Positions 1-11,157 of a stretch of DNA of 11,157 nt are shown here, in pieces (the stretch's first letter is position 1; each line of letters starts with the position of its first letter). The DNA lies in the NCBI GenBank assembly GCA_002394535.1, contig DGUG01000226.1, positions 1 through 11,157 of the forward strand. The letters run 5' to 3'. Source of the stretch: Lachnospiraceae bacterium UBA4316. Lineage in GTDB: Bacteria; Bacillota; Clostridia; Lachnospirales; Lachnospiraceae. The translations under genes were made by a program, and so were the position numbers. Under the pieces are notes generated by a model, which made no database searches, had not been told where the DNA came from, and saw nothing but the letters and a program-made list of their open reading frames with translations.

Positions 1-380
1 GCATCTAGGAGCGGATTTCCGTCAGCATCAAATGCCTCTGTAACGCTTACGGTTATCTTAAACTTAGAAGTGTCGCTTACAATACCGTTCTGATCAAAAT
101 ATGTTTCCTCGACGGTATAAGTATGATCACCTCTGTCATCGTATTCCTTAAGTTCTTTGTTTTCATCCTCAAATGCTCCCCACTTATAGTTAAGGAAGTC
201 AATCTCGGAGGCATTGAAGGCAACAACACTCGGTACACCAAAGCTATCATTGGTATTATTAACCTTAGCTGTCTTACCTGTTGCATCATCTGTCAGAACA
301 AACTCAAACTTATCATCTTTCGTAAGTTTACGACCATCAAGTTTCTTGACACCCACAAGGTCTATAGACCCTTCCTGATT
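1..380 (-). repeat. Stalk domain 19, partial (residues 3390-3515)
   Basis: Cut by the window edge after VTEAFDADGNPLLD. Lys3401 (VKKLDGR) and Glu3480 (YTVEET) are visible; the expected bonding Asn would lie beyond base 1. The frame is still open at the edge. Confidence 0.8.
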
Positions 381-3300
381 GAAGATGTTAAGGAATACAT
401 CCTTGTACTCTTCATCCGACAATGCATTCTCTGTTTCCTGTACCCACTTCGGTTTACCTGTTCCATCAGGTGTTGTCACATGAAGCTTGCCGTCCTCGAT
501 ATCATAAACGGTAAACTCAAGCTTAAATACCGCAGGCGAATTAGTTACACCAGGTACGCTCGACTTCATATCCTCGGTTGCAGTAAAGACAAATGTCTTC
601 TCTACCTTTCGGGGTTCCGTCTCGGTTGCCGGTGTTATCTTCACATCATCAAACGCCAACAGATCAGTATATTTGATCTTGAGATCATCTACCGCTATCT
701 CACCGGCATTAGGCCATTCAGCTCCGCTTACGCTGTATCCGTTAAGTACATGCCTATGGTATCCCTTCTCGAGTTCGCCCATGCTGGCAAGGCCGTCATC
801 AGAATCAATGTTGAACCAGAACATACCTCTCTTGATCTTCATACCGAATATCTGCTTGGTAAATACGGGCGGATCGATCTCGCACACAGCATCGTACTCG
901 TTCTCGAATACAACATCATCATTCTTAGCGGTACCATTTATCTTGAACAGATCCTTAACTCTGTTGATAAGACCCGTCCTTGAATCGCCTGAATACTCGG
1001 TATTCTTCTTGGCAACTATCCTCTTAGTAACATCAAGCTTCAAAGTCTTGTTGTTAACGATCTTGACTTCAACAACATACGCTTCCCTGCTATAGGTTAC
1101 TCCGGCCTTTGATGCGACCTCTTCTTCGATCGTGTAGTACTTCTTGATCTCATCAAGGTAACTTCCGTCAGAAGCCTTAAGATCCTCCTGCGTATATGAA
1201 AGATCCTCAAACTTGAACGCAGATTCGGAAGTAAATGTCTTCATATCAAGATCTGCATTACCGCATGTTACTCTCTGAAGCGTTTTGCCGCTCTCATCTT
1301 TCAGAACAAACCAGAAATCACCTGACTTAAGAGGCTGGTTCTTCATGATCTTCTCGCCATCAAGAGGAATGCTTCCTTCTGCATTAAACTGGTTGTCAAA
1401 TGTGATGGCATCATTAACACCAAGCGTGCTCGGCTCACCTGTAGCCGGTATCTTGCTTGTCTCTTTACGGACACTGAGCTTACCGTCCTTGCCTTCTCCT
1501 ACAGTGATCTTAACTTCATATTCCGTAGGATCGAGCGTAGTTCCGTCTATTGTTGCGATCTCTCTTACAACATAAACATGTTCGCCGATATCCTTCTGAG
1601 TATATTGAAGCTTTTTAAATGTAAACTTGTCGCCCTTATTCTTAACTGTTTCTATAAGGGTCTCTTTGCCGTCACTATCCTTCTCCGAAAGTGAGAATTC
1701 ATATGAAGCATCTTCAAGTCTCTTACCTGTTACGGTCTTAACACCGTCGATTATCTCCTCTCCTTCAGCCTTGTACTTATTCGTAAATACAAGTCCGGTC
1801 GCAGGATCGACGTTCCTCGTGGATGAAGTCCTTGCCTGAAGAAGTCCGTCCGCATCATAGTAAAGCTCAACGGTAATATCATAATGACCATCGTCATATG
1901 TGACGTTTCCGGTCCTCTGATCTATTGTAGGGATCTCCTCATAGACCGTATATTTGAACTTATGTCCGTTGCTTGCAGAATCAAGATAATCCTGCTGCGT
2001 GAATACAAGCTCATCAAAATGGTAATCCGTAGGTTCGGTAGCATTCTTAGGAGTAACCGTTACCTTCTGCTCCTTATCTCCTACCTTGACCACATTTCCG
2101 TTTTCATCCGCAAGAACGAATGTATACGTTCCAAGAGTTGTTCCTCCGTCAACAAATCCGGAAAGTTCCTTGGACCCGCCAAGAGGCACCTTTGTGGATG
2201 ATTCATACTTGTTTGTAAACTTAATATCCGTTACGGAGCCATCAAGGTAAGTGGTCTCACCTTCTTTTTTATTATTTGTAAGCGTAACTTTTGTAGCTAC
2301 CTTATTATTATTGTTGGAAACCTCAACTTTAGCTGTATATACAGTATCATCGTATTTAATACCGTTATTCAGATCAAAGATCGTTTCTCTGATCGTATAG
2401 GTATATTCTTTTCCAACATCGGCAAGTGTATACTCGATGTCATCAAAGACAGCCTTTGTCCCAGTGTTCCATACACTCTGGTTCTGATCCGGTCCGGTAA
2501 GGGTAAACTCGAACATATGGTCCGCGATCGCTTTACCTGTAAGAGTCTTTTCAACTTCAAAGTGAACCGAGTTGGGCTTAACATCCGGATTGATAAATGA
2601 GCAACTGTCCGCCGTCGTATTGTTCTGGCTTGCATTGGTTATAGTCTTAACAACGTCAAGCGTTCCGTCGAGGTTATCATTAACATTGACTTCAACGTCA
2701 TAGATCGTCTTATCAAACTTAATGCTTGACTGTCCCAGCTTAGCTTTCTCAGCATCATCGGGTTCGACCTCAGTTACTCTGTAGAAGTATGTCTTGCCTA
2801 TGTCATCCTGAGTGTATTCCTGCTTGAATGAGAACTTTCCTCCGGCGTTGGTAGTCTCAGCAATCTGCTGATAATCTCCGTTCTCATCCTTCTTCTCAAG
2901 GATAAATGTAAATTCTCCATCCGTAAGATCTCTGCCGGTAACTTCCTTGGTTCCGGGAATAACAACATCTCCCTTAGCCTCGTATACGTTGGTGAATATC
3001 ATCTTGCCGGTATAAGGTGTTCCGTCTTGATTGAACATCTGCTCACCGTTCTTCTTGATGACCTTATCGACATCAAGCTCTCCGCTTCCGATATCCTTAA
3101 CGGTCACAACAGCATCATAAACATCTGTGCTGTACTTATAACCGTCGTTGTCAACCTTGGTTTCCTTGACTGTGTACGTATAAGTCTTGTAAGTTCCGTC
3201 CGCATGCTTAACAAGATCATCAAGCTTATAATCAAACGAAGCTATGGTCTTGGTCTCGTTGGCCTTGCATTTTGTTGTATATGTCTTGCCATTCTCGTCC

Positions 3301-6300
3301 GTAAGAACAAACTCAAATTCCTTTGTATTATCATCTGTTCCCTGAACAAGCTTCTGAACTTCAAACGAAACCGAGCCGTTTGCATTATATACGTTATGGA
3401 ACGTAGCCAACTTACTTGCAAGTACAGAGATCTCGTTACTTGTTACAGACGCTGTAAGCTTTCCTTTACTGTTGGTGACAGTGATGACTACATTATAAGT
3501 AGAATCATCATACGTCACGCCCGGAAGCTTGTCGGCATCAGCCGGAATATCTTCCTTGACCGTATATGCAAATTCTTTTCTGTCTGCGTAGGTACCATCC
3601 TCGTTCTTCATATCGGAGAATTCAAATTTGATCTCCGGGAATGTGATGGTTGTTCCTACATTCCTAACTGTTTTATTGTATTTCTTAGGATTTCTTGCGG
3701 CGCTTGCCATGGTGAAGCTGAACTCGCCATCGGAAAGAGCACGTCCTACAAGCTCTTTCTCTCCACCCGGTACTACTGTAATAGGCTTTGTATCATATGT
3801 ATTAACAAAATCCACAGGCTCAGGCTTGCAAAGGTTGATTACCTTATCGCCTTCTGTTACCTCTGTGCCGGATACGGATGTAGTCTTTCCATTTCCGCTT
3901 ATAACGGCACTGACAGTCAGCTTACCGTTATCATTATCGGAAACAGTTACACTTACCGTATACGGTGTAGGATCATACTTGACACCGTCAAGTACCCAAA
4001 TACCGTCTACCTGCTCTGCCCCTTCAGGTACAAGCTCCGTAATGGTGTATTCATAGCTTTCACCGGCCTTAGTGGGCTTCGTGTAAGTGATCCTGTCAAA
4101 TACAACATTGCCGGCTGCATCATTTGACTTCTCCTGCTTGAGCGTCTTTCCGTTCTCATCCTTACCTGTAAGAAGGAATGTAAAGTCGCCTGCCGACAGA
4201 GCCTTGCCCGTAAGAGTCTTTAATGCTCTAAGATCAAGTGATCCTTCAGCTTCATATGTGTTGGTAAATCCGGTATCCTTTCCTACTCCTTTACCAGTGA
4301 TGAATCCGAGTACTCTTTCCCAGAATCCCGGTGTCTCATATGTCTCGCCTTCCTTGTATGCATACCAGTCGGTATCGATATTACCCTTGCCGTCATCTTT
4401 AAGGGTTACAACGATATTGTAGACCGTTCCGTCATATGTGTATCCGTCCTTCTTGTATGTTCCGTCAGCAAAAGGACCTGCGGCGCCTTCAGGAATGCGC
4501 TCCTTCATTGTGTAGTAAACGCCATACTTACCATCGCCTATGGCATTAACCATATCCTTAAGTGTGTAAGTCATCTCAGGGAATACGGCTGTCGCCTGCT
4601 TACCTGCCTGGGCGCTGGTCACGCTTGCGGAATTGACAAGTGTTCCTGTCTGATCATAGAGATCGAACGTGAACTTATTTGCCTCAGTGATGTCTCTTCC
4701 TACAAGAGTCTTCTTGGCTTCAAGAGAAATCTTTCCTGTTGCTTTGTAGGTATTGTCGAATTCAACATATGCGTCACCTTCTGCGATGAGGTTGGTTCCG
4801 GTTGAATCGTAATATTTCTTGTCAACAACAAGTTTGCCTGTCTCCGTATCTATGGAGATAAATGCTTTCGCAATGTAGGTAGCAGTGCTCAGAGTGTATC
4901 CCTCAATAGTCTCAGCCTTCTCTTTGATCAGGTATTCAACAGGGCTCTTTGCAACATCCGCCTCGGTAAACTTGAGTTCCTTGAACGTGATGTACCCGCC
5001 ATCCTCATTCTTCTTCGTATCCTCAAGTACCGTATAGTTGCCCGCACTGTCCTTGCTGTACAGTTCGAATGAGAACTTCCTGTTTTCGCTATATTCACCG
5101 TTTACTTTCTTTCTTGCAACAAAGTGAGTCTTACCATCTGCATTGAAAGTGTTGTTAAAGCATACTGCATCGGGCTCTTTGTCCTTAACGGCTGTTATCG
5201 TTCCGTCTCCGTTATCAGTCAGAGTTACCTTTACAGTATAAATCTCAGTACTGTTTGTGATACCGGGAACTGTTTCATCCGCTTCACTGATCGTATAGTA
5301 CTTGTAAGCCGTCTTTTGGCCGTTAAGATCAGCTTCCGTATAATTAAGCGTAGTGAAATTAAACTCTCCGCCGTTTTCTCCGAAAAGCTTGGTATCCTTC
5401 GTTATGGGAACCTTCTCTATGAACTTATCCCCTTCATAAAGCTCGGCAAAGAACTTTCCTGAATCCGAGGAATCAAACTCTCTTCCGGTGATCTTCTTGG
5501 TTCCGCCTAAATCGATATGACCCTCTGCATGGTATTCATTCTCGAACCTGGCCGGGTTCGTTTCCGTTGCATTATTGGCAGTAATTTCAAGATTTCCGTC
5601 ACCCAGATCCTTGACGTTTATTGTTACATTTTCGATGTGTCCGTCATAGGTATATCCGTTCTTCTTGTATGTTCCGTCGTCCTGCTTAACAGCGCCCTCC
5701 GGAATAACCTCCTCTATCGTATAGAAGAAGTCCTTTGAAGGCTGCTTGTTAAGATCGCTGTATGTGAACGGAAGTGCCGTGAACGAAACATTACCGTTTA
5801 CATCATTCTTTGCTTCTTCGATCAGGTTTTCGCCCTGCTTGAGTCTGAAGGTAAACTGGTTTGCTTCGATCGTCCTGCCTGTCAGATCCTTATGGGCAAA
5901 CAGAGGAATGCTGCCCGGATTGTAAGGCGTATTTACAAATCCGATCTCATTTACATATCCTTCCGTTCCGGTCTTCTGGATCTTCTTATTTTCGGGCTTC
6001 AGAATCTCAAGAGCACCCTTGCCGTTGTCAGTTACCTTAATGGTAACAAAATACTCGGCTGTGGAATAAACCATGTTGCCCGTATCAGCGGGAACAACCT
6101 CGGTTACCCTGAACTTGAACGTTCCGGTTGTCTTGAATGTGATATCGTCAAACTTGAACGCATCAACAGCGAGTGTAGCCGGTACACCGTTCATTACGGT
6201 AGTAGCTGAAGGCATAACAACATCGCCTGCAGCGATAGCCTGTGTTGTCACGTCATCGCCCGCTTCAAGCTTGAATTCAAATTTCTCTCTTTCAAGAGTT

Positions 6301-9300
6301 GCGCCTCCGCTAAGAGTCTTCTTACCTGTGATAGGCTCCTTTACGGGCTCGGATATCATGTAGTCATTGATGAATGACGGATCGACTGTCGTGATCACAT
6401 TGGAATCTGTCGGTTCCGCATCATATGCACCATAAATATCCTTTTTAAGTGTTCCGTCACCGTTATCCGATACAACAACCTTGATCCTGTATGTGCGTGC
6501 ATCATAAATGATACCCTCATGGAGCTTCTTGCCGGGCATGCCTTCGATATCGACAGCACCATCGGGAACTACTTCGTTGATCGTATAATTGTATGTTCTG
6601 CTTCCGTATGTTCCATCAGTGTTCTTGGGAAGATCTGTAAGCTTGTAATCATATGTTGATGTCTTCCCGTTCTCAAGGAATGTTACGGTACCGGGACCTG
6701 TAACAGACTTCGTCATTGACGATTTTACGGTGTTACCCTCAATTTCCTTGAGGATGAAACTGAACGACCGGCTCGTTGACAGAGCTGTATTTTCGGCATA
6801 TTCCTTCTCCGCCTGGAATACTATATTGCCTGCGGCATTGTAAAGGTTTTCGAACTCTGCAGGCTTCAGGCATGTAGCAAAATCATGCTGATCGACCTCG
6901 AGTTTACCGTCCATATCGGTATCGGTAATCGTAACCGACACATTGTGCTTGGTCGAAGAAACAGTGATGTTCTGGCTGTTAACAGCTGTTTCTTCTATAA
7001 CATAATGATAGGTCTTACCTATATCTTTCTCGCTGTATGAAAGTTCATCAAAATTGAACTTGAAGTTGAAAGCGGCTGCTTCGGGGCCGGAGAACTCCTT
7101 GGTCTGGTTTGCCTTCTCCTGCGTGTCGTCCGTGCTTGAAAGCTTGAACGTGAACTTGTCGCTCTTTGTTATCTTACGTCCCTTAAGGGTCTTCTTACCG
7201 TAGAATACAGCCTTTCCGGTTGCGCTGTATTTATTTGTGAATACAAACTTGGATCCGCCGAATTTGAACGTATTATCACCATTTATAACGCTGACGCAGT
7301 TATAACCGTTTTCGGGATTCTCAAACCGATAATACTCGACATTCGTTTTAACTTCGCCGTTTACAACATTGGCGGTAACCTTTACGACATAAGCCCCTTT
7401 GTCCTTCTCATACGGAGCCTTGCACTCGGTCTCCTTAATGAGATACAGCCAATAATCAGAGGTCTGTCCGTTTCTGATTGTCAGATCAATAGGATCAAAT
7501 GTTATGCTTGATCCGACATTCGCTTTGGTCTGTATGGCCTTGTTCTCTTTGAATTTGCTTTTACCGCCGTACTCATACAAAGAGAATTTGAACGTTGTAT
7601 TTGCAGGCACCGCAGTATTATCATCATTGATCTTCTTGATACCTTCAAACTGAACGCGTGCTCCCGAAGGCTTGTAAGTATTTACAAACTCTATCGGACG
7701 ATCCTTGATCGGGAGACACTCTTTGTGCTTCGTCATCTTTGTCTTGGGTTCAATGCGGAGCTTATAAACATCCAGATTTCCGTACTTATAATGATAAGCA
7801 TTGATCCACAGCTTGACATACCAGGGTTCTGTCTGATATGTGATACCGGGTCTCTTGGGATTGGGGATCACTTCGGTGATCTTGTACATAAAGCTTAAGC
7901 AATGTACGTCCTCGTGCCAGTACCAGGAAGCATCGCTCCCACGGTCATATACCTTCTGGGCATCCAAGGTGATCCTACCGAATGACGCACTGTGACCCGG
8001 CGAGTTCTCATATATAGTGATCAGGTTTTTCTCAGGCATTACAGGATTATCATCCTGCTTGTTTCCCTGATCGTCATAGCCCGTAAACGGCTCAATCTTG
8101 AAGGTGAATCCTTCCTCGGGCCAGGGACCGTCGAATGCTTTGGATATTCTGAAGTCAAAGCCCTTCTCTTCCGTTTTTGTCTCAGGCATATCATGCCATG
8201 TGCAGTGCCACTCAGCTCCGCCTACCTTGGCAACGTCCTTGGCAACGAGCCAACCGCCGCTTGTATTGTTAACTTCAATCTCTGCTTTGGGACAGATGAA
8301 TGCCCCGTCAACATTACCCCGGAAGGTAACGGTCTCAGCCTTGGGCATGTTGTAGATGAGATGCTCAGAGATCATGGGCTGTGTTCCGTTCGGAGAATAA
8401 TCTTTATTATCTATAATGAGTCCGACATTCTGATCAAGAATAACATTCTTATCAGGAATATTGAAAACAACAGTCTGTTTGGATGTCATCTTGATCTTCA
8501 GACCGTTCGTACTTCCGGACCAGTCACCGAACTCTCCGTTATCGAAATTGAAGTAGTATGTTCCGTCGCCGCTACCCCACTGCGTAAGGTCAAGATAATA
8601 CATCTTATCTCCGGAATTGGTATTGATCCTGTCCTTAAATTTGCCAAAATCATATGAATTCTTCTCGCCGAACATCGCATCTGCATTTCTCTGTGCTTCA
8701 CCGATCAATTCATCAACGAGCGTATTGATCTCATCCTGGCTGTAACTTACAGTGTCGACAAGTGTGCCGCTAGCCTCCTGATCCGAGTTAAATTTAGCAG
8801 CCGCCTCAGGCGTCGTATATATAAGTACCTTACCTTTATTACCGTTATCCGTAAGTTTGAAATAATTACCCTCATATGCGCCGATATAAGTGAATCCTGT
8901 ACCGCCGCCATCGTTTTTGCACGAGTTCATTGCAACATCGCCCTTTAAGACCTTTGTCGCAAAGTTCGTCTCATTATGTCCTCTGAGGTTGATGGAATTG
9001 GATACAATACCGTAATTAACGTTGGCGCCGAGTGCCTTCTTGAAATCTCTTTCGGTACCTGTCTGGAACTTGAGTGTACCATCCGTCTGGATAGCCCAAA
9101 GTGAGAAGCTGTCTGTTTCAAATTCAACAACTCCGTCCTCTACCGAAGCATCAACGTCAACAGTTTCTGTTGTGATAGTTGAACCTTCCTCAACGATATG
9201 TGTGACCGTTACTTCATCGTCATCTACAGCACCGAGATCTTCAGCAAGCTGATCTCTCTTAAATTCGATGCTGACTCTGACAGAACCTTCTTCAGGCTCG

Positions 9301-10547
9301 ATCTCTTCGGCCTTGGTGTCATCCGTGTAGAAACCGATATCATAAAGTAACGTATTTTCAGCTGTTGCAAGGATGTCTCCGTTCTCGACATCTTTGTCCT
9401 TGTTCAATGCCTCAAGGTACTTCTCAGACTCCTCCTCTGTAAGAGGTGTAACCCCAAAATAGGCATCATCGGGAACTGCGTCTGCCTTCTCGAGTGTTGC
9501 CGTAACCTTGACCTTATTGTCTTCGTATTCATATACTCTCTTGGTGTTTTCATTATCAACAGTGATGACTGCTACTGCGTCCTCAACGCTGTCGATGTTT
9601 ACGATAGACTTGATCTTAATCTCTTCGTCATCAGATACAACGTATGCAACAAAGCTTTCTTCATCAAGATCTTCAATGGTTAACTGGTCGCTGTCCTTGC
9701 CAAGTCCGCTTATTCCTTCCGAAGCGTCCTTGCCGTTAACTGTTGCTGCGGCGTCGCTCTCTACGAAGAGCTTGAATGATGCTTTGTCTGATAATTCTTC
9801 GGCATTAAACTTAACAGTGATGGAATCGAATCCTTCACCGCTTATTGCTTCTATCTCGTCCCCGTTCGTTGATGTGAGAGTCTTGGTCGTAAGGACCTTC
9901 TCAGCCGGTATGCTCTCAACAACGATCAAAGGATATCCGTCTTCATTATATGTATAGGAAAGGATAACATCATCTGAGGAATTGGCACGGATAGAGAATT
10001 CGCCGCCTTCAAGGCTGTCGAAATCGTATCTTCCGTCATTGGTCTTATCAAGGTCTTCATTGAGAACCGGGTTGTATGATGCACTTGCAGGACCTGTAAA
10101 ATCAATGCGGAACTTGTCCCTGTTGTCAAGTTCGTCTGTATTGACATATACGGAGATATCATCGTACCCGGAACCGGTGATCCCACTATCGGAAACATCA
10201 AGGGTTCCTTTGAGAAGTTCTTCAGCTTCTTCGAAGACTTCTGCCTCTTCCGGAACTTCCTCGGAATACTCTTCAACCTCCGGAGTCTCTTCTACGGTCT
10301 CCACGAACTCTTCGTCCGCAGAAGCTTCAACTACCTCAAAATCCGTCTGGCCTCCATCATCAGGCTCAACGGTGATATCAAGGTTTTCTCCGGTCTCTTT
10401 GACCGCATCGTTATTAACAACGATACCGTCCTCGGTCGTGATTTCGGCAGCAAATGTCTGAACAGATGAAAAGCCTGTCTCAAGCACTGTTGCGACGAGG
10501 GTTAACATCGCGATCGTGGTTCTAAGCCAATTTCTCTTTGTCCTCAT
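1..10547 (-). CDS. Giant surface adhesin with choice-of-anchor A head and FctA-type isopeptide-domain stalk (partial, C-terminus off window)
   Basis: One frame stays open from ATG 10545-10547 to the left edge (at least 3,515 codons). The domain lengths I translated add up exactly to the coordinates, so I see no frameshift. Order: signal peptide 1-34, acidic linker 78-110, paired module 121-150/233-261, adhesin-type N-terminal domain about 275-490, choice-of-anchor A type domain about 491-790, then 19 tandem stalk domains to the edge. Each stalk domain starts near a K-x-[LIV]-x-G motif, has an [IV]-x-E strand in its middle and ends in F-x-N-x-Y. This matches the FctA/Spy0128 family, in which Lys and Asn are joined by an isopeptide bond assisted by Glu. 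The expected role is a secreted, wall-anchored adhesin or fibre. No sortase motif or membrane anchor is visible because the C-terminus is missing. The start was chosen for its AAGGAG site six bases upstream and the signal peptide that follows directly. The ligand is unknown. Confidence 0.93.
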   Translation of the reverse strand, partial: MRTKRNWLRTTIAMLTLVATVLETGFSSVQTFAAEITTEDGIVVNNDAVKETGENLDITVEPDDGGQTDFEVVEASADEEFVETVEETPEVEEYSEEVPEEAEVFEEAEELLKGTLDVSDSGITGSGYDDISVYVNTDELDNRDKFRIDFTGPASASYNPVLNEDLDKTNDGRYDFDSLEGGEFSIRANSSDDVILSYTYNEDGYPLIVVESIPAEKVLTTKTLTSTNGDEIEAISGEGFDSITVKFNAEELSDKASFKLFVESDAAATVNGKDASEGISGLGKDSDQLTIEDLDEESFVAYVVSDDEEIKIKSIVNIDSVEDAVAVITVDNENTKRVYEYEDNKVKVTATLEKADAVPDDAYFGVTPLTEEESEKYLEALNKDKDVENGDILATAENTLLYDIGFYTDDTKAEEIEPEEGSVRVSIEFKRDQLAEDLGAVDDDEVTVTHIVEEGSTITTETVDVDASVEDGVVEFETDSFSLWAIQTDGTLKFQTGTERDFKKALGANVNYGIVSNSINLRGHNETNFATKVLKGDVAMNSCKNDGGGTGFTYIGAYEGNYFKLTDNGNKGKVLIYTTPEAAAKFNSDQEASGTLVDTVSYSQDEINTLVDELIGEAQRNADAMFGEKNSYDFGKFKDRINTNSGDKMYYLDLTQWGSGDGTYYFNFDNGEFGDWSGSTNGLKIKMTSKQTVVFNIPDKNVILDQNVGLIIDNKDYSPNGTQPMISEHLIYNMPKAETVTFRGNVDGAFICPKAEIEVNNTSGGWLVAKDVAKVGGAEWHCTWHDMPETKTEEKGFDFRISKAFDGPWPEEGFTFKIEPFTGYDDQGNKQDDNPVMPEKNLITIYENSPGHSASFGRITLDAQKVYDRGSDASWYWHEDVHCLSFMYKITEVIPNPKRPGITYQTEPWYVKLWINAYHYKYGNLDVYKLRIEPKTKMTKHKECLPIKDRPIEFVNTYKPSGARVQFEGIKKINDDNTAVPANTTFKFSLYEYGGKSKFKENKAIQTKANVGSSITFDPIDLTIRNGQTSDYWLYLIKETECKAPYEKDKGAYVVKVTANVVNGEVKTNVEYYRFENPENGYNCVSVINGDNTFKFGGSKFVFTNKYSATGKAVFYGKKTLKGRKITKSDKFTFKLSSTDDTQEKANQTKEFSGPEAAAFNFKFNFDELSYSEKDIGKTYHYVIEETAVNSQNITVSSTKHNVSVTITDTDMDGKLEVDQHDFATCLKPAEFENLYNAAGNIVFQAEKEYAENTALSTSRSFSFILKEIEGNTVKSSMTKSVTGPGTVTFLENGKTSTYDYKLTDLPKNTDGTYGSRTYNYTINEVVPDGAVDIEGMPGKKLHEGIIYDARTYRIKVVVSDNGDGTLKKDIYGAYDAEPTDSNVITTVDPSFINDYMISEPVKEPITGKKTLSGGATLEREKFEFKLEAGDDVTTQAIAAGDVVMPSATTVMNGVPATLAVDAFKFDDITFKTTGTFKFRVTEVVPADTGNMVYSTAEYFVTIKVTDNGKGALEILKPENKKIQKTGTEGYVNEIGFVNTPYNPGSIPLFAHKDLTGRTIEANQFTFRLKQGENLIEEAKNDVNGNVSFTALPFTYSDLNKQPSKDFFYTIEEVIPEGAVKQDDGTYKKNGYTYDGHIENVTINVKDLGDGNLEITANNATETNPARFENEYHAEGHIDLGGTKKITGREFDSSDSGKFFAELYEGDKFIEKVPITKDTKLFGENGGEFNFTTLNYTEADLNGQKTAYKYYTISEADETVPGITNSTEIYTVKVTLTDNGDGTITAVKDKEPDAVCFNNTFNADGKTHFVARKKVNGEYSENRKFSFELYSKDSAGNYTVLEDTKKNEDGGYITFKELKFTEADVAKSPVEYLIKEKAETIEGYTLSTATYIAKAFISIDTETGKLVVDKKYYDSTGTNLIAEGDAYVEFDNTYKATGKISLEAKKTLVGRDITEANKFTFDLYDQTGTLVNSASVTSAQAGKQATAVFPEMTYTLKDMVNAIGDGKYGVYYTMKERIPEGAAGPFADGTYKKDGYTYDGTVYNIVVTLKDDGKGNIDTDWYAYKEGETYETPGFWERVLGFITGKGVGKDTGFTNTYEAEGSLDLRALKTLTGKALSAGDFTFLLTGKDENGKTLKQEKSNDAAGNVVFDRITYTKPTKAGESYEYTITELVPEGAEQVDGIWVLDGVKYDPTPYTVSVTVSDNDNGKLTVSAVISGNGKTTSVSGTEVTEGDKVINLCKPEPVDFVNTYDTKPITVVPGGEKELVGRALSDGEFSFTMASAARNPKKYNKTVRNVGTTITFPEIKFEFSDMKNEDGTYADRKEFAYTVKEDIPADADKLPGVTYDDSTYNVVITVTNSKGKLTASVTSNEISVLASKLATFHNVYNANGSVSFEVQKLVQGTDDNTKEFEFVLTDENGKTYTTKCKANETKTIASFDYKLDDLVKHADGTYKTYTYTVKETKVDNDGYKYSTDVYDAVVTVKDIGSGELDVDKVIKKNGEQMFNQDGTPYTGKMIFTNVYEAKGDVVIPGTKEVTGRDLTDGEFTFILEKKDENGDYQQIAETTNAGGKFSFKQEYTQDDIGKTYFYRVTEVEPDDAEKAKLGQSSIKFDKTIYDVEVNVNDNLDGTLDVVKTITNASQNNTTADSCSFINPDVKPNSVHFEVEKTLTGKAIADHMFEFTLTGPDQNQSVWNTGTKAVFDDIEYTLADVGKEYTYTIRETIFDLNNGIKYDDTVYTAKVEVSNNNNKVATKVTLTNNKKEGETTYLDGSVTDIKFTNKYESSTKVPLGGSKELSGFVDGGTTLGTYTFVLADENGNVVKVGDKEQKVTVTPKNATEPTDYHFDELVFTQQDYLDSASNGHKFKYTVYEEIPTIDQRTGNVTYDDGHYDITVELYYDADGLLQARTSSTRNVDPATGLVFTNKYKAEGEEIIDGVKTVTGKRLEDASYEFSLSEKDSDGKETLIETVKNKGDKFTFKKLQYTQKDIGEHVYVVREIATIDGTTLDPTEYEVKITVGEGKDGKLSVRKETSKIPATGEPSTLGVNDAITFDNQFNAEGSIPLDGEKIMKNQPLKSGDFWFVLKDESGKTLQRVTCGNADLDMKTFTSESAFKFEDLSYTQEDLKASDGSYLDEIKKYYTIEEEVASKAGVTYSREAYVVEVKIVNNKTLKLDVTKRIVAKKNTEYSGDSRTGLINRVKDLFKINGTAKNDDVVFENEYDAVCEIDPPVFTKQIFGMKIKRGMFWFNIDSDDGLASMGELEKGYHRHVLNGYSVSGAEWPNAGEIAVDDLKIKYTDLLAFDDVKITPATETEPRKVEKTFVFTATEDMKSSVPGVTNSPAVFKLEFTVYDIEDGKLHVTTPDGTGKPKWVQETENALSDEEYKDVFLNIFNQEGSIDLVGVKKLDGRKLTKDDKFEFVLTDDATGKTAKVNNTNDSFGVPSVVAFNASEIDFLNYKWGAFEDENKELKEYDDRGDHTYTVEETYFDQNGIVSDTSKFKITVSVTEAFDADGNPLLD
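381..893 (-). repeat. Stalk domain 18 (residues 3219-3389)
   Basis: The longest complete copy (171 residues) and divergent. Predicted triad Lys3231 (FTKQIFG), Glu3325 (FTATEDM) and Asn3387 (FLNIF). It has an insert with histidines and aromatics (EKGYHRHVLNGYSVSGAEW) in the middle of the domain. Confidence 0.7.
894..1385 (-). repeat. Stalk domain 17, with helical insert (residues 3055-3218)
   Basis: Predicted triad Lys3066 (EKIMKNQ), Glu3141 (YTIEEEV) and Asn3216 (FENEY). Residues 3186-3209 contain RTGLINRVKDLFKING, an amphipathic helix-like insert at the same place as the one in domain 9. Confidence 0.78.
1386..1772 (-). repeat. Stalk domain 16 (residues 2926-3054)
   Basis: Predicted triad Lys2937 (VKTVTGK), Glu2996 (YVVREIA) and Asn3052 (FDNQF). 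The closing aromatic is Phe. Confidence 0.8.
1773..2204 (-). repeat. Stalk domain 15 (residues 2782-2925)
   Basis: Predicted triad Lys2793 (SKELSGF), Glu2870 (YTVYEEIP) and Asn2923 (FTNKY). The expected Arg after Gly is Phe, and an extra turn (VDGGTTLG) follows. Confidence 0.8.
2205..2582 (-). repeat. Stalk domain 14 (residues 2656-2781)
   Basis: The shortest copy (126 residues). Predicted triad Lys2667 (EKTLTGK), Glu2721 (YTIRET) and Asn2779 (FTNKY). The Lys-Asn distance is 112. A polar loop rich in Asn, Lys and Thr (LTNNKKEGETTYLDGS) precedes the last strand. Confidence 0.85.
2583..2981 (-). repeat. Stalk domain 13 (residues 2523-2655)
   Basis: Predicted triad Lys2534 (TKEVTGR), Glu2593 (YRVTEVEP) and Asn2653. 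The last strand reads FINPD: the bonding Asn is kept but the aromatic after it is replaced by Pro-Asp. Confidence 0.8.
2982..3386 (-). repeat. Stalk domain 12 (residues 2388-2522)
   Basis: Predicted triad Lys2399 (VQKLVQG), Glu2462 (YTVKETK) and Asn2520 (FTNVY). The reactive-Lys strand is K-L-V-Q-G instead of K-x-L-x-G-R. Confidence 0.8.
3387..3794 (-). repeat. Stalk domain 11 (residues 2252-2387)
   Basis: Predicted triad Lys2264 (EKELVGR), Glu2332 (YTVKEDIP) and Asn2385 (FHNVY). The link from domain 10 is DTKPITVVPGG, a little longer than usual. Confidence 0.85.
3795..4253 (-). repeat. Stalk domain 10 (residues 2099-2251)
   Basis: Predicted triad Lys2110 (LKTLTGK), Glu2171 (YTITELVPEGA) and Asn2249 (FVNTY). 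It has a Gly/Ser/Thr-rich loop (SGNGKTTSVSGTEVTEGD) before the last strand. Confidence 0.85.
4254..4745 (-). repeat. Stalk domain 9, with helical insert (residues 1935-2098)
   Basis: Predicted triad Lys1946 (KKTLVGR), Glu2016 (YTMKERIPEGA) and Asn2096 (FTNTY). It shares the DGTYKKDGYTYDG loop with domain 6. Residues 2072-2091 (TPGFWERVLGFITGKGVGKD) form an aromatic and hydrophobic insert just before the last strand, absent from most other copies. Confidence 0.8.
4746..5144 (-). repeat. Stalk domain 8 (residues 1802-1934)
   Basis: Predicted triad Lys1813 (ARKKVNG), Glu1876 (YLIKEKA) and Asn1932 (FDNTY). An extra segment (KKYYDSTGTNLIAEGD) stands before the last strand. Confidence 0.8.
5145..5531 (-). 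repeat. Stalk domain 7 (residues 1673-1801)
   Basis: Predicted triad Lys1684 (TKKITGR), Glu1755 (YTISEAD) and Asn1799 (FNNTF). The closing aromatic is Phe rather than Tyr. The adjoining Asn1798 is a second Asn next to the predicted bonding one. Confidence 0.8.
5532..5921 (-). repeat. Stalk domain 6 (residues 1543-1672)
   Basis: Predicted triad Lys1553 (HKDLTGR), Glu1612 (YTIEEVIPEGA) and Asn1670 (FENEY). It carries the loop DGTYKKNGYTYDG, shared almost exactly with stalk domain 9. Confidence 0.85.
5922..6359 (-). repeat. Stalk domain 5 (residues 1397-1542)
   Basis: Predicted triad Lys1410 (GKKTLSGG), Glu1483 (FRVTEVVP) and Asn1539. The final motif is FVNTPY, one residue longer than the usual F-x-N-x-Y. 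It joins domain 4 through the proline-rich link SEPVKEP. Confidence 0.8.
6360..6839 (-). repeat. Stalk domain 4 (residues 1237-1396)
   Basis: Predicted triad Lys1248 (EKEYAEN), Glu1325 (YTINEVVP) and Asn1394 (FINDY). The K-x-L-x-G-R motif is replaced by K-E-Y-A-E-N. A 30-residue loop follows the Glu strand. Confidence 0.75.
6840..7226 (-). repeat. Stalk domain 3 (residues 1108-1236)
   Basis: Predicted triad Lys1119 (KKTLKGR), Glu1185 (YVIEET) and Asn1234 (FENLY). Close to the family consensus, with F-T-F-K-L after the Lys strand and V-T-I-T-D near the end. Confidence 0.85.
7227..7673 (-). repeat. Stalk domain 2 (residues 959-1107)
   Basis: Predicted triad Lys971 (GIKKIN), Glu1039 (YLIKETE) and Asn1105 (FTNKY). 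It lacks the usual G-R after the reactive Lys and has an extra hairpin (ENPENGYNCVSVINGDN) before the last strand. Confidence 0.75.
7674..8170 (-). repeat. Stalk domain 1, FctA-like (residues 794-958)
   Basis: The first and one of the most divergent stalk domains. The predicted bond triad is Lys803 (SKAFDG), Glu892 (YKITEVIP) and Asn956 (FVNTY). The Lys-Asn distance of 153 is long because of aromatic-rich insertions (ASWYWHEDVH, YVKLWINAYHYKY). It joins directly to the head domain. Confidence 0.75.
8178..9077 (-). other. Choice-of-anchor A type head domain (residues about 491-790)
   Basis: The region opens with an N-Y-G-I-V strand (LGANVNYGIVSNSINLRG). It ends with the pattern typical of this family: LIYNMPKAETVTFRGNVDGA, then ICPKAEIEV, NNTSGGWLVAKDV and GGAEWH. 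The family ending is roughly [IL]-x-[YW]-N-x-P-x-A, then G-x-[IV]-x-A-P-x-A, then G-x-x-[IV]-A-[KS], then E-x-H. In known proteins it is a beta-helical or beta-sandwich surface domain at the outer end of adhesins. Here it precedes the stalk, so it is the likely ligand-binding tip. Residues about 510-690 hold family-atypical insertions, including a helical stretch near SYSQDEINTLVDELIGEAQR. Confidence 0.7.
9078..9725 (-). other. Adhesin-type N-terminal domain (residues about 275-490)
   Basis: This acidic beta-rich region includes YEYEDNKVKVTATLEKADAV, a Y-D-I-x-F strand, EEGSVRVSIEF, and a closing TDSFSLWAI around Trp484. I know this arrangement (V-x-V-T-A-T-L early, a G-S-V-x-V-x-I-x-F strand, and T-D-S-F-S-x-[WY] at the end) from the N-termini of large clostridial surface proteins. 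I cannot give it a family accession. It is probably a structural domain between the N-terminus and the head. Confidence 0.5.
9765..9851 (-). repeat. N-terminal module, copy 2 (residues about 233-261)
   Basis: Second copy of the I-x-G-x-G-[YF]-D-x-I-x-V-x-x-N pattern, followed by AEEL and FKLF. Identity to copy 1 is only at pattern level, so the duplication is old. It precedes the larger N-terminal adhesin domain. Confidence 0.65.
10099..10187 (-). repeat. N-terminal module, copy 1 (residues about 121-150)
   Basis: The segment starting SGITGSGYDDISVYVN aligns with EAISGEGFDSITVKFN at residue 233. The shared pattern is I-x-G-x-G-[YF]-D-x-I-x-V-x-x-N, then E-L and a Phe-containing strand. The offset is 112 residues, which suggests two copies of a domain of roughly 110 residues. 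I do not recognise the family. Confidence 0.65.
10218..10316 (-). other. Acidic low-complexity linker (residues 78-110)
   Basis: Eighteen of 33 residues are Asp or Glu, with Pro, Val, Thr and Ala between them. It sits between the processed N-terminus and the first folded module and is most likely a flexible, highly charged spacer. No binding function can be read from it. Confidence 0.75.
10446..10547 (-). other. Sec signal peptide of the giant adhesin (residues 1-34)
   Basis: The N-terminus begins MRTKRNWLRT, a strongly basic n-region. A hydrophobic core (IAMLTLVATVL) and a polar stretch ending TFAA follow, before an acidic mature start (EITTEDG). The likely signal peptidase I cut is after Ala34, or one residue earlier. 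This supports export through Sec and supports the ATG at 10545-10547 as the true start. Confidence 0.85.
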
Positions 10548-10553
10548 AATTCT

Positions 10554-10559
10554 CTCCTT
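10554..10559 (-). promoter_or_regulatory. Ribosome-binding site of the giant adhesin
   Basis: AAGGAG on the minus strand, six bases before the ATG at 10545-10547. The strong match and good spacing, with a signal peptide immediately after, favour this start over the in-frame ATG at 10617-10619. Confidence 0.85.
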
Positions 10560-10617
10560 GTTCCCTTTCCTGTTGGGTTTTCGGTTAATATATACTTTCG
10601 GGTACGGGTATACACGC

Positions 10618-10645
10618 ATAGTATCCCCTTTCCCCTTTATATCAA
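10618..10645 (-). promoter_or_regulatory. Possible sigma-A-type promoter of the giant adhesin
   Basis: TTGATA (10640-10645), a 16-base spacer, then TACTAT (10618-10623): five of six and four of six consensus matches. It would give a leader of about 60 bases. It overlaps the upstream in-frame ATG, which would then not be transcribed whole. Other weak -10-like boxes occur nearby (for example in TATATATT), so this is a candidate only. Confidence 0.4.
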
Positions 10646-10794: not shown

Positions 10795-11157
10795 TTACCG
10801 AGACTGATCGTAGACGCCGAAGGCAAGCTCTCTGGCTTCGTCATATTCCATCGGGCGACCCCAGATGTAGCCTTGAATAAAGTCACAATCAAGCGTCTTC
10901 AGGCATTCAACCTGATTGTCATGCTCCACTCCTTCGGCAATAACCTCCGCATCCATCAAATGTCCCATGTAGATAATAGACTTGACGAAGTCCGTATTCA
11001 CATCATTGCGAAGAATGTTATCTATAAGCGATTTGTCTATCTTCACAAGGTTGATCGGAAGATTCATCAGCTGTCCGAGAGATGTGTATCCTGTTCCGAA
11101 ATCATCAAGAGCTATCATTATCTGGTTATCGCGCAGTATCTTGATATTCTCGATCGT
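10795..11157 (-). CDS. EAL-domain cyclic-di-GMP phosphodiesterase, C-terminal part
   Basis: The frame enters from the right edge and stops at TAA 10795-10797, giving 120 visible residues. The sequence holds the later conserved motifs of the EAL family: DDFGTGYTSL (metal-binding Asp pair), NLVKIDKSLI (conserved Lys and Asp), VIAEGVE (catalytic Glu) and IQGYIWGRPM near the end. These residues hydrolyse cyclic-di-GMP to pGpG in active members, and none looks degraded. The EAL signature itself and any sensor or GGDEF domain lie upstream, outside the window. The ATG at 11116-11118 is internal to the domain and not the real start. It ends soon after the domain (YDQSR), as is usual when EAL is the last domain. 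It is cytosolic or membrane-tethered depending on the missing N-terminus. Confidence 0.92.
   Translation of the reverse strand, partial: TIENIKILRDNQIMIALDDFGTGYTSLGQLMNLPINLVKIDKSLIDNILRNDVNTDFVKSIIYMGHLMDAEVIAEGVEHDNQVECLKTLDCDFIQGYIWGRPMEYDEARELAFGVYDQSR

Follow-up and report, generated by a model that had tools for sequence, protein, structure and literature searches.

The major pilin Spy0128 (FctA) of group A Streptococcus, the T antigen, consists of two domains per subunit and is polymerised by sortase. T antigens vary between strains and the FCT region has been termed a recombination hotspot; according to the part of a 2021 review available to us, intragenic recombination is unreported for pilus genes (PMC7900414). 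Tandem isopeptide domains are frequent in the proteins of a recent survey, which also describes fibrillar adhesins with an adhesive domain, a tandem isopeptide stalk and a sorting signal (PMC12617251), and an adhesin of Mobiluncus mulieris reaches 7,651 residues with 51 crosslinked Ig-like domains (PMC10619420). Periscope proteins are likewise rod-like single chains whose repeats project a tip (PMC9704523; PMC8201768), the repeats being near-identical and variable in number (PMC9704523). Here, we analysed a stretch of 11,157 nucleotides from Lachnospiraceae bacterium UBA4316, an uncultured organism of gut type (GCA_002394535.1, contig DGUG01000226.1; hereafter the window), which carries a giant surface protein gene. 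Very probably, this gene encodes a fibrillar adhesin anchored to the cell wall, whose ~4,200 residues include an ice-binding-like tip and an FctA-type stalk; its domain array is fixed, and its sequence seems to be exchanged in blocks. Its stalk shares the domain family, the Lys-Glu-Asn arrangement and the predicted fold with Spy0128, but unites 20 such domains with a tip and an anchor in one chain.

The gene occupies positions 3..10619 of the minus strand, on which all adhesin features given below are located, as a single open frame of 3,539 codons that is free of stops up to the contig end, where its 3' end is cut. Translation likely starts at 10547 (residue 25), as a Shine-Dalgarno-like AAGGAG at 10554-10559 lies just 5' of this Met and the homologues P0002, P0006 and P0031 start at the equivalent position. 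The preceding 24 codons of open frame (10548-10619) are near-identical in P0001, P0009 and P0021 and probably represent an untranslated leader. A predicted signal peptide (residues 25-58; 10446..10547), whose cleavage site was placed by eye and whose homologues start similarly, leads into an N-terminal region with an acidic stretch and no family match (residues 59-519; 9063..10445), the tip (residues ~520-808; 8196..9062) and the stalk.

Motif and alignment revealed 18 complete FctA-type domains and one partial domain in the stalk, spanning 8177..3. These are D1 (7671..8177; K827, E916, N980), D2 (7224..7670; K995, E1063, N1129), D3 (6837..7223; K1143, E1210, N1258), D4 (6357..6836; K1272, E1349, N1418), D5 (5922..6356; K1434, E1507, N1563), D6 (5529..5921; K1577, E1637, N1694), D7 (5142..5528; K1708, E1779, N1823), D8 (4743..5141; K1837, E1900, N1956), D9 (4251..4742; K1970, E2040, N2120), D10 (3792..4250; K2134, E2195, N2273), D11 (3384..3791; K2288, E2356, N2409), D12 (2979..3383; K2423, E2486, N2544), D13 (2583..2978; K2558, E2617, N2677), D14 (2202..2582; K2691, E2745, N2803), D15 (1770..2201; K2817, E2894, N2947), D16 (1383..1769; K2961, E3020, N3076), D17 (891..1382; K3090, E3166, N3240), D18 (378..890; K3255, E3349, N3411) and D19 (3..377; K3425, E3505), which is cut by the contig end. 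The original prediction, made from the letters of the window, had read these as tandem isopeptide domains with the bond residues kept in every complete copy. Lys, Glu and Asn indeed occupy the bond positions in 18 of 18 complete domains with the Lys-Asn distances of 112-156 given there, and with our boundaries the complete segments measure 127-171 residues (126-171 in that prediction). Only these three residues and a Phe two positions before the Asn are invariant in the 228-column alignment of the 18 domains.

Several searches assign these segments to the isopeptide family. Leave-one-out profiles, each built from the 17 remaining domains after masking of the three bond columns, recovered all 18 domains at E <= 1.6e-5, whereas the best of 360 shuffled domains scored E = 7.8 against the masked 18-domain profile; together with the stop-free frame, this excludes chance or a misread frame as the origin of the array. 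The protein matches Pfam FctA (PF12892) with 638.6 bits in 17 matches, all above the cut-off and corresponding to D3-D19, while D1 reaches 31.6 bits (cut-off 22.1) when scanned alone, so that 18 of the 19 window domains lie above the threshold. NCBIfam TIGR03786 matched ten stretches of the window protein. With D10-D11 as query, no PDB sequence matched at E 0.1, and the 18-domain profile retrieved 11 distinct PDB sequences. The D10-D11 model has a pLDDT (predicted local distance difference test) of 93.3, and the predicted folds of D1, D10 and D11 (three of the 19 window domains) match Spy0128 and FctB with a CnaB-like β-sandwich. Profile searches and structure prediction, both proposed with the original prediction, thus agree with it, D2 remaining below the Pfam cut-off.

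To follow the chain beyond the contig end, we turned to the homologue P0001 (4,237 residues), which, like P0002, shares 97% of residues 505-990 with the window and whose last 500 residues match another contig of the same genome, C224, at 98%. C224 begins within D19 and carries the Asn of that domain (FEFKNEF, by eye), a 20th domain, one Cna_B and three SpaA matches, and it ends in GPVTGD, a membrane segment read by eye and a basic end. P0001 comprises 20 FctA-type domains by our profile, which also recruited D20, as compared to 18 FctA stretches by Pfam; one Cna_B domain, three SpaA domains, a linker, VLGxR repeats, GPVTGD, a membrane segment and a basic end follow. The earlier figure of at least 19 domains therefore holds for the window, with 18 complete and one partial, but falls short for the chain, as P0001 has 20 FctA-type plus four Cna_B or SpaA domains. 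A Pfam scan of P0001 (E 0.01) returned FctA, SpaA and Cna_B only, and residues 59-519 were not searched for a thioester structure. The Mobiluncus adhesin is likewise a single-chain giant surface protein with tandem Spy0128-like isopeptide domains; its description includes a thioester tip and intermingled ester-bond domains (PMC10619420).

The tip matches the ice-binding-like adhesive family pAdhesive_15 (PF20597) in both profile and predicted ice-binding-protein fold. A Pfam scan of the whole protein overlooked both the tip and D1, which a piecewise scan recovered. Ice-binding proteins were matched by the tip-D1 model in VIA-align, and none was seen among the 50 matches listed by Foldseek for the same model. 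A search with the tip alone retrieved one protein, P0033, which is named 'choice-of-anchor A domain-containing protein/pilin isopeptide linkage protein' at its source. With a PF20597 tip, a repeated stalk and a tail with membrane segment and basic end (C224, P0001), the chain has the architecture of the fibrillar adhesins, which likewise have an adhesive domain, a tandem isopeptide stalk and a sorting signal. These form a general class, and the part of the survey available to us names no fixed-slot, block-recombining array among them (PMC12617251). Judging from its main text, a second fibrillar-adhesin survey mentions neither Lachnospir nor FctA (PMC9210967), and our literature search found no paper on such an adhesin in Lachnospiraceae.

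Comparison with relatives shows that the order of the stalk domains is kept. We called a relative colinear if at least 16 window domains had their best match at one offset, and considered 37 relatives with at least 14 domains after removal of one identical duplicate. Fifteen of these 37 are colinear with the window at median identities of 35-53% (94% for P0001), with same-position matches for 19 of 19 domains in P0002, P0006 and G019 and for 18 of 18 in G018, G028 and G035; the remaining 22, which are more distant, share 2-12 domains at one offset. Across 1,428 ordered protein pairs, 11,558 of 24,158 best matches fall at the modal offset versus 3,683 under a random null (54 of 1,482 pairs with fewer than eight matching domains were dropped; the duplicate P0005/G019 was kept in this figure). 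Domain number is stable as well: among the 15 colinear relatives, nine P proteins and G023 have 20 recruited domains (P0005 being identical to G019), G018, G028 and G035 have 19 plus D1 identified by eye, G026 has 20 plus one overlooked, and G024 is cut. This differs from Mobiluncus, where M. mulieris is described as set apart from M. curtisii mainly by 21 extra isopeptide domains (PMC10619420). The chain also differs from Periscope proteins, as its repeats are divergent (best intra-chain identity of a domain: median 33%, maximum 40%; 16 of 19 domains with a match) and their number does not change in the colinear set. A record number of domains, in turn, is overruled by the 51 of the Mobiluncus adhesin and by the homologue P0026, which has 32 FctA-type domains. 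Long isopeptide stalks are thus already known; what is less expected is a fixed array with exchanged sequence.

The apparent exchange is seen in homologues that are 97-100% identical over their last 490 residues and yet fall, in blocks, to ~50% identity along the stalk or to 37% at the tip, as if alleles had recombined. P0001 and P0002 are 86% identical over residues 61-220, 98-99% over 221-1420, 51-55% up to 3410 and 97-99% thereafter. In P0006 and P0021, the tip is 37% identical, residues 821-1420 are 60% and those from 1421 onwards 91-100% identical, and P0001 and P0006 share 38-57% over 221-3410 and then 95-100%. Single-breakpoint tests on P0001/P0002, P0006/P0021 and P0001/P0006 yielded 289.9, 716.7 and 215.0, as compared to permutation maxima of 29.6, 16.7 and 32.5. 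These alignments suggest that related strains exchange tip and stalk segments block by block, presumably within one species. A possible, though rather unlikely, source of the pattern is an assembly artefact, in which the conserved ends of one strain were joined to another strain's middle part: the sequences seem to stem from metagenome assemblies, the breakpoints coincide with the borders of highly identical segments, and P0002 is found on one contig. However, the cluster of P0009 (90% identity) comprises five contigs from three sources, and those of P0011 and P0021 comprise three contigs each. Moreover, the window genome and G026 have near-identical neighbouring genes and a divergent adhesin, which speaks for fast change rather than for blocks: GGDEF-EAL is 98-99.5%, the sortase 91% and RNase R 88% identical, as compared to 33% for the tip and 34-42% for the stalk. 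Because GGDEF-EAL reaches this identity despite the 88% of RNase R (window 10798-11157 and L063 6629-7840 compared with L039 of G026), this neighbour may itself have been swapped between species. We consider it evenly poised whether the adhesin is a fibre of fixed length with a replaceable surface, in which 20 old and distinct positions stay constant and segments of tip and stalk are swapped between strains at one locus.

Throughout this divergence, the bond residues are retained. With the bond columns masked, a profile search recruited 278 domains from 15 proteins, namely the window protein plus a single protein per genome for 14 genomes (a lone domain of a second G028 protein was excluded). 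Asn and Glu are each present in 276 and Lys in 263 of these domains, making them the three most conserved columns. Seventeen rows deviate from K-E-N, 13 within the genus (243 domains) and four in G048, a member of another genus. The former comprise ten position-18 domains with the Lys one column off, one domain cut at a window edge and two gaps with residues read by eye. Domains that the profile overlooked (one each in G026, G001, G011 and G030; D1 of G035, G028 and G018) carry similar motifs by eye. In the 4,520-residue frame G048:C18, domains 11, 15 and 18 have Thr, Ala and Ser instead of the bond Lys, two of them also Gln instead of Glu, and the fourth odd row is a truncated segment. Since these Lys-less domains are still recruited by the masked profile, retention of the bond residues is not automatic for the fold; the same domains represent natural bond-less controls. 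A separate hmmsearch-based count over 46 proteins, whose figures exclude G048 and G057, found Glu in 724 of 738 domains and, where aligned, Lys in 642 of 650 and Asn in 369 of 372; Asn is unaligned in 366 domains because the matches end early, and some odd rows (e.g. one of G026) are K-E-N in the 278-domain alignment, displaced Lys aside. At stalk identities of 91, 60, 50 and 50%, P0001, P0002, P0006 and P0009 agree with the window at 54 of 54 bond sites, and P0021, whose tip-proximal domains are arranged differently, at 52 of 54, the two misses looking like alignment faults.

It is improbable that Lys, Glu and Asn are kept merely as the fold needs them, with many domains being bond-less. Other core residues (Phe, Tyr, Gly) are well kept too, one Phe in 93.5% of the 278 domains, and bond formation itself is deduced; however, the three bond residues outrank all other columns, and in G048 the fold seems to outlast the loss of Lys in three domains, though in one protein of another genus. 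Family profiles, three predicted folds and these three columns together uphold the isopeptide-domain reading.

A second mechanism for the variation, in which silent cassettes or in-genome copies are switched into the expressed gene, appears similarly doubtful. G020, G025 and G028 each harbor two giant tail-bearing genes on one contig and the same strand, yet the 500-residue tail matches just once in the window genome and once in each of the near-complete G011, G015 and G018. In the window genome (235 contigs, 70.9% complete, the window being C129), FctA matches are confined to the window contig, and with a single tail copy and FctA matches on one contig, an in-genome cassette store is unsupported.

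Within the C-terminal 150 residues of 32 homologues, LPxTG is found in none and one xPxTG[DN] in all 32, next to two or three V[LRA]Gx[RK] peptides; in the window genome, this tail is located on C224 (L056) at 1789-2001. A 71-residue tail is present in 30 of 37 same-genus genomes and in none of 24 genomes from other families of the order, the two sets covered by the search. Judging from these sequences, the combination of V[LRA]Gx[RK] and xPxTG[DN] is possibly an undescribed sorting or processing signal; literature searches for VLGARR or VLGVR found nothing related. A class-B-like sortase is encoded on contig C190 (L063 5733-6590). Sortases were found at 8 of 12 same-genus loci (L040 1056-1898; L091, L095, L101, L103, L104, L105 and L108 are further sortase-bearing loci). 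In congeners, the class-B-like sortase lies near the tail-bearing gene, upstream in some and directly downstream in others. Although FctA domains next to a class-B-like sortase, a sub-threshold match of the C-terminal piece to the LPXTG major pilin model NF033902 (78.6 bits, cut-off 95) and the role of the class B sortase Spy0129 in pilus assembly (PMC3019223) would fit a pilin subunit polymerised by sortase as Spy0128, this is, judging from the domain content, very improbable for a single chain that already contains 24 stalk domains and its own tip.

We therefore return to the single-chain fibrillar adhesin. The exported chain would display its ice-binding-like β-solenoid tip on a rod in which 20 FctA/Spy0128-type domains are followed by one Cna_B and three SpaA domains; its non-canonical sorting signal (xPxTGD) would probably be used by the neighbouring class-B-like sortase. 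In each FctA domain, a buried Glu would drive spontaneous bond formation between a first-strand Lys and a last-strand Asn, so that force from tip to wall would be carried via covalent cross-bridges. Fold, order and bond residues would stay constant and tip and stalk diverge, giving a constant domain number with a changing surface. Resistance to pulling force or proteases, as the original prediction had proposed, would follow by analogy from published work on Spy0128-type domains.

Several points weigh against this proposal. Lys-Asn bond formation in the FctA-type domains, anchoring, adhesion and the mechanical role are what we infer, the tip being a candidate ligand-binder, and the structure models cover three of the 20 FctA-type domains. 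D2 has no Pfam FctA match when scanned alone and is assigned because of its leave-one-out profile (E = 1.1e-5) and its own bond residues; D20 on C224 has no Pfam FctA match either and reaches 15.2 bits with TIGR03786 (cut-off 31.85). The gene is split over two contigs, with ~30 residues between window and C224 unassembled. The sortase lies just under the class B cut-off, and the tail is no canonical LPXTG sortase substrate, its motif being devoid of the Leu. Finally, the block test shows uneven ancestry, in which natural recombination and joining by an assembler look alike, and the homologues with the block pattern are protein clusters from metagenome assemblies, with P0002 on a single contig.

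The gene neighbourhood extends over three contigs, which we kept separate without joining. Upstream of the adhesin, the window contains the 3' end of a GGDEF-EAL gene (10798..11157, minus strand), which picks up at residue 440; its 5' part (residues 1-404) lies with the sortase gene at the end of C190. As GGDEF-EAL spans C190 and the window and the adhesin spans the window and C224, the contigs are ordered C190, window, C224. Downstream of the adhesin tail, a gene with a prepilin-type methylation motif is followed by secG and rnr; secG and rnr are also found downstream in several relatives, and a triosephosphate isomerase gene upstream at other relatives' loci (Pfam-checked in one). In G010, a giant frame is likewise followed by secG and rnr, so that one locus may house different stalk types. 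Open frames of ~5,100-6,800 residues with the same type of tail occur in G002, G003, G010, G017 (interrupted by a stop), G020, G025, G027, G028 and G034, and a Cna_B/SpaA query matches repeatedly in the five genomes searched with it, G002, G003, G010, G017 and G020. A weak tail match (E 9.9e-5) lies inside a 9,817-residue open frame at G026:C5:103456, and a frame of the window genome at G000:C94 (L078) 2663 also holds VLGVR and VLGSR.

If true, this organisation is the opposite of the Periscope strategy: the surface, and with it ligand, antigen or phage recognition, would vary, and not the length or the covalent backbone. As we read the literature available to us, tandem isopeptide stalks have so far been studied mainly in pathogens and pilins, and in a set of uncultured Lachnospiraceae, divergent domains number in the hundreds and occupy orthologous places in a set order. 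Comparison can now ask whether the bond itself is under selection, given that no other feature is kept as well and that roughly half of the remaining residues differ, and why stalk length varies in some adhesins and stays constant in others. For protein ligation tools, the family is also a source of many new Lys-Glu-Asn domains, and it adds a candidate sorting signal of non-canonical type that has a sortase nearby.

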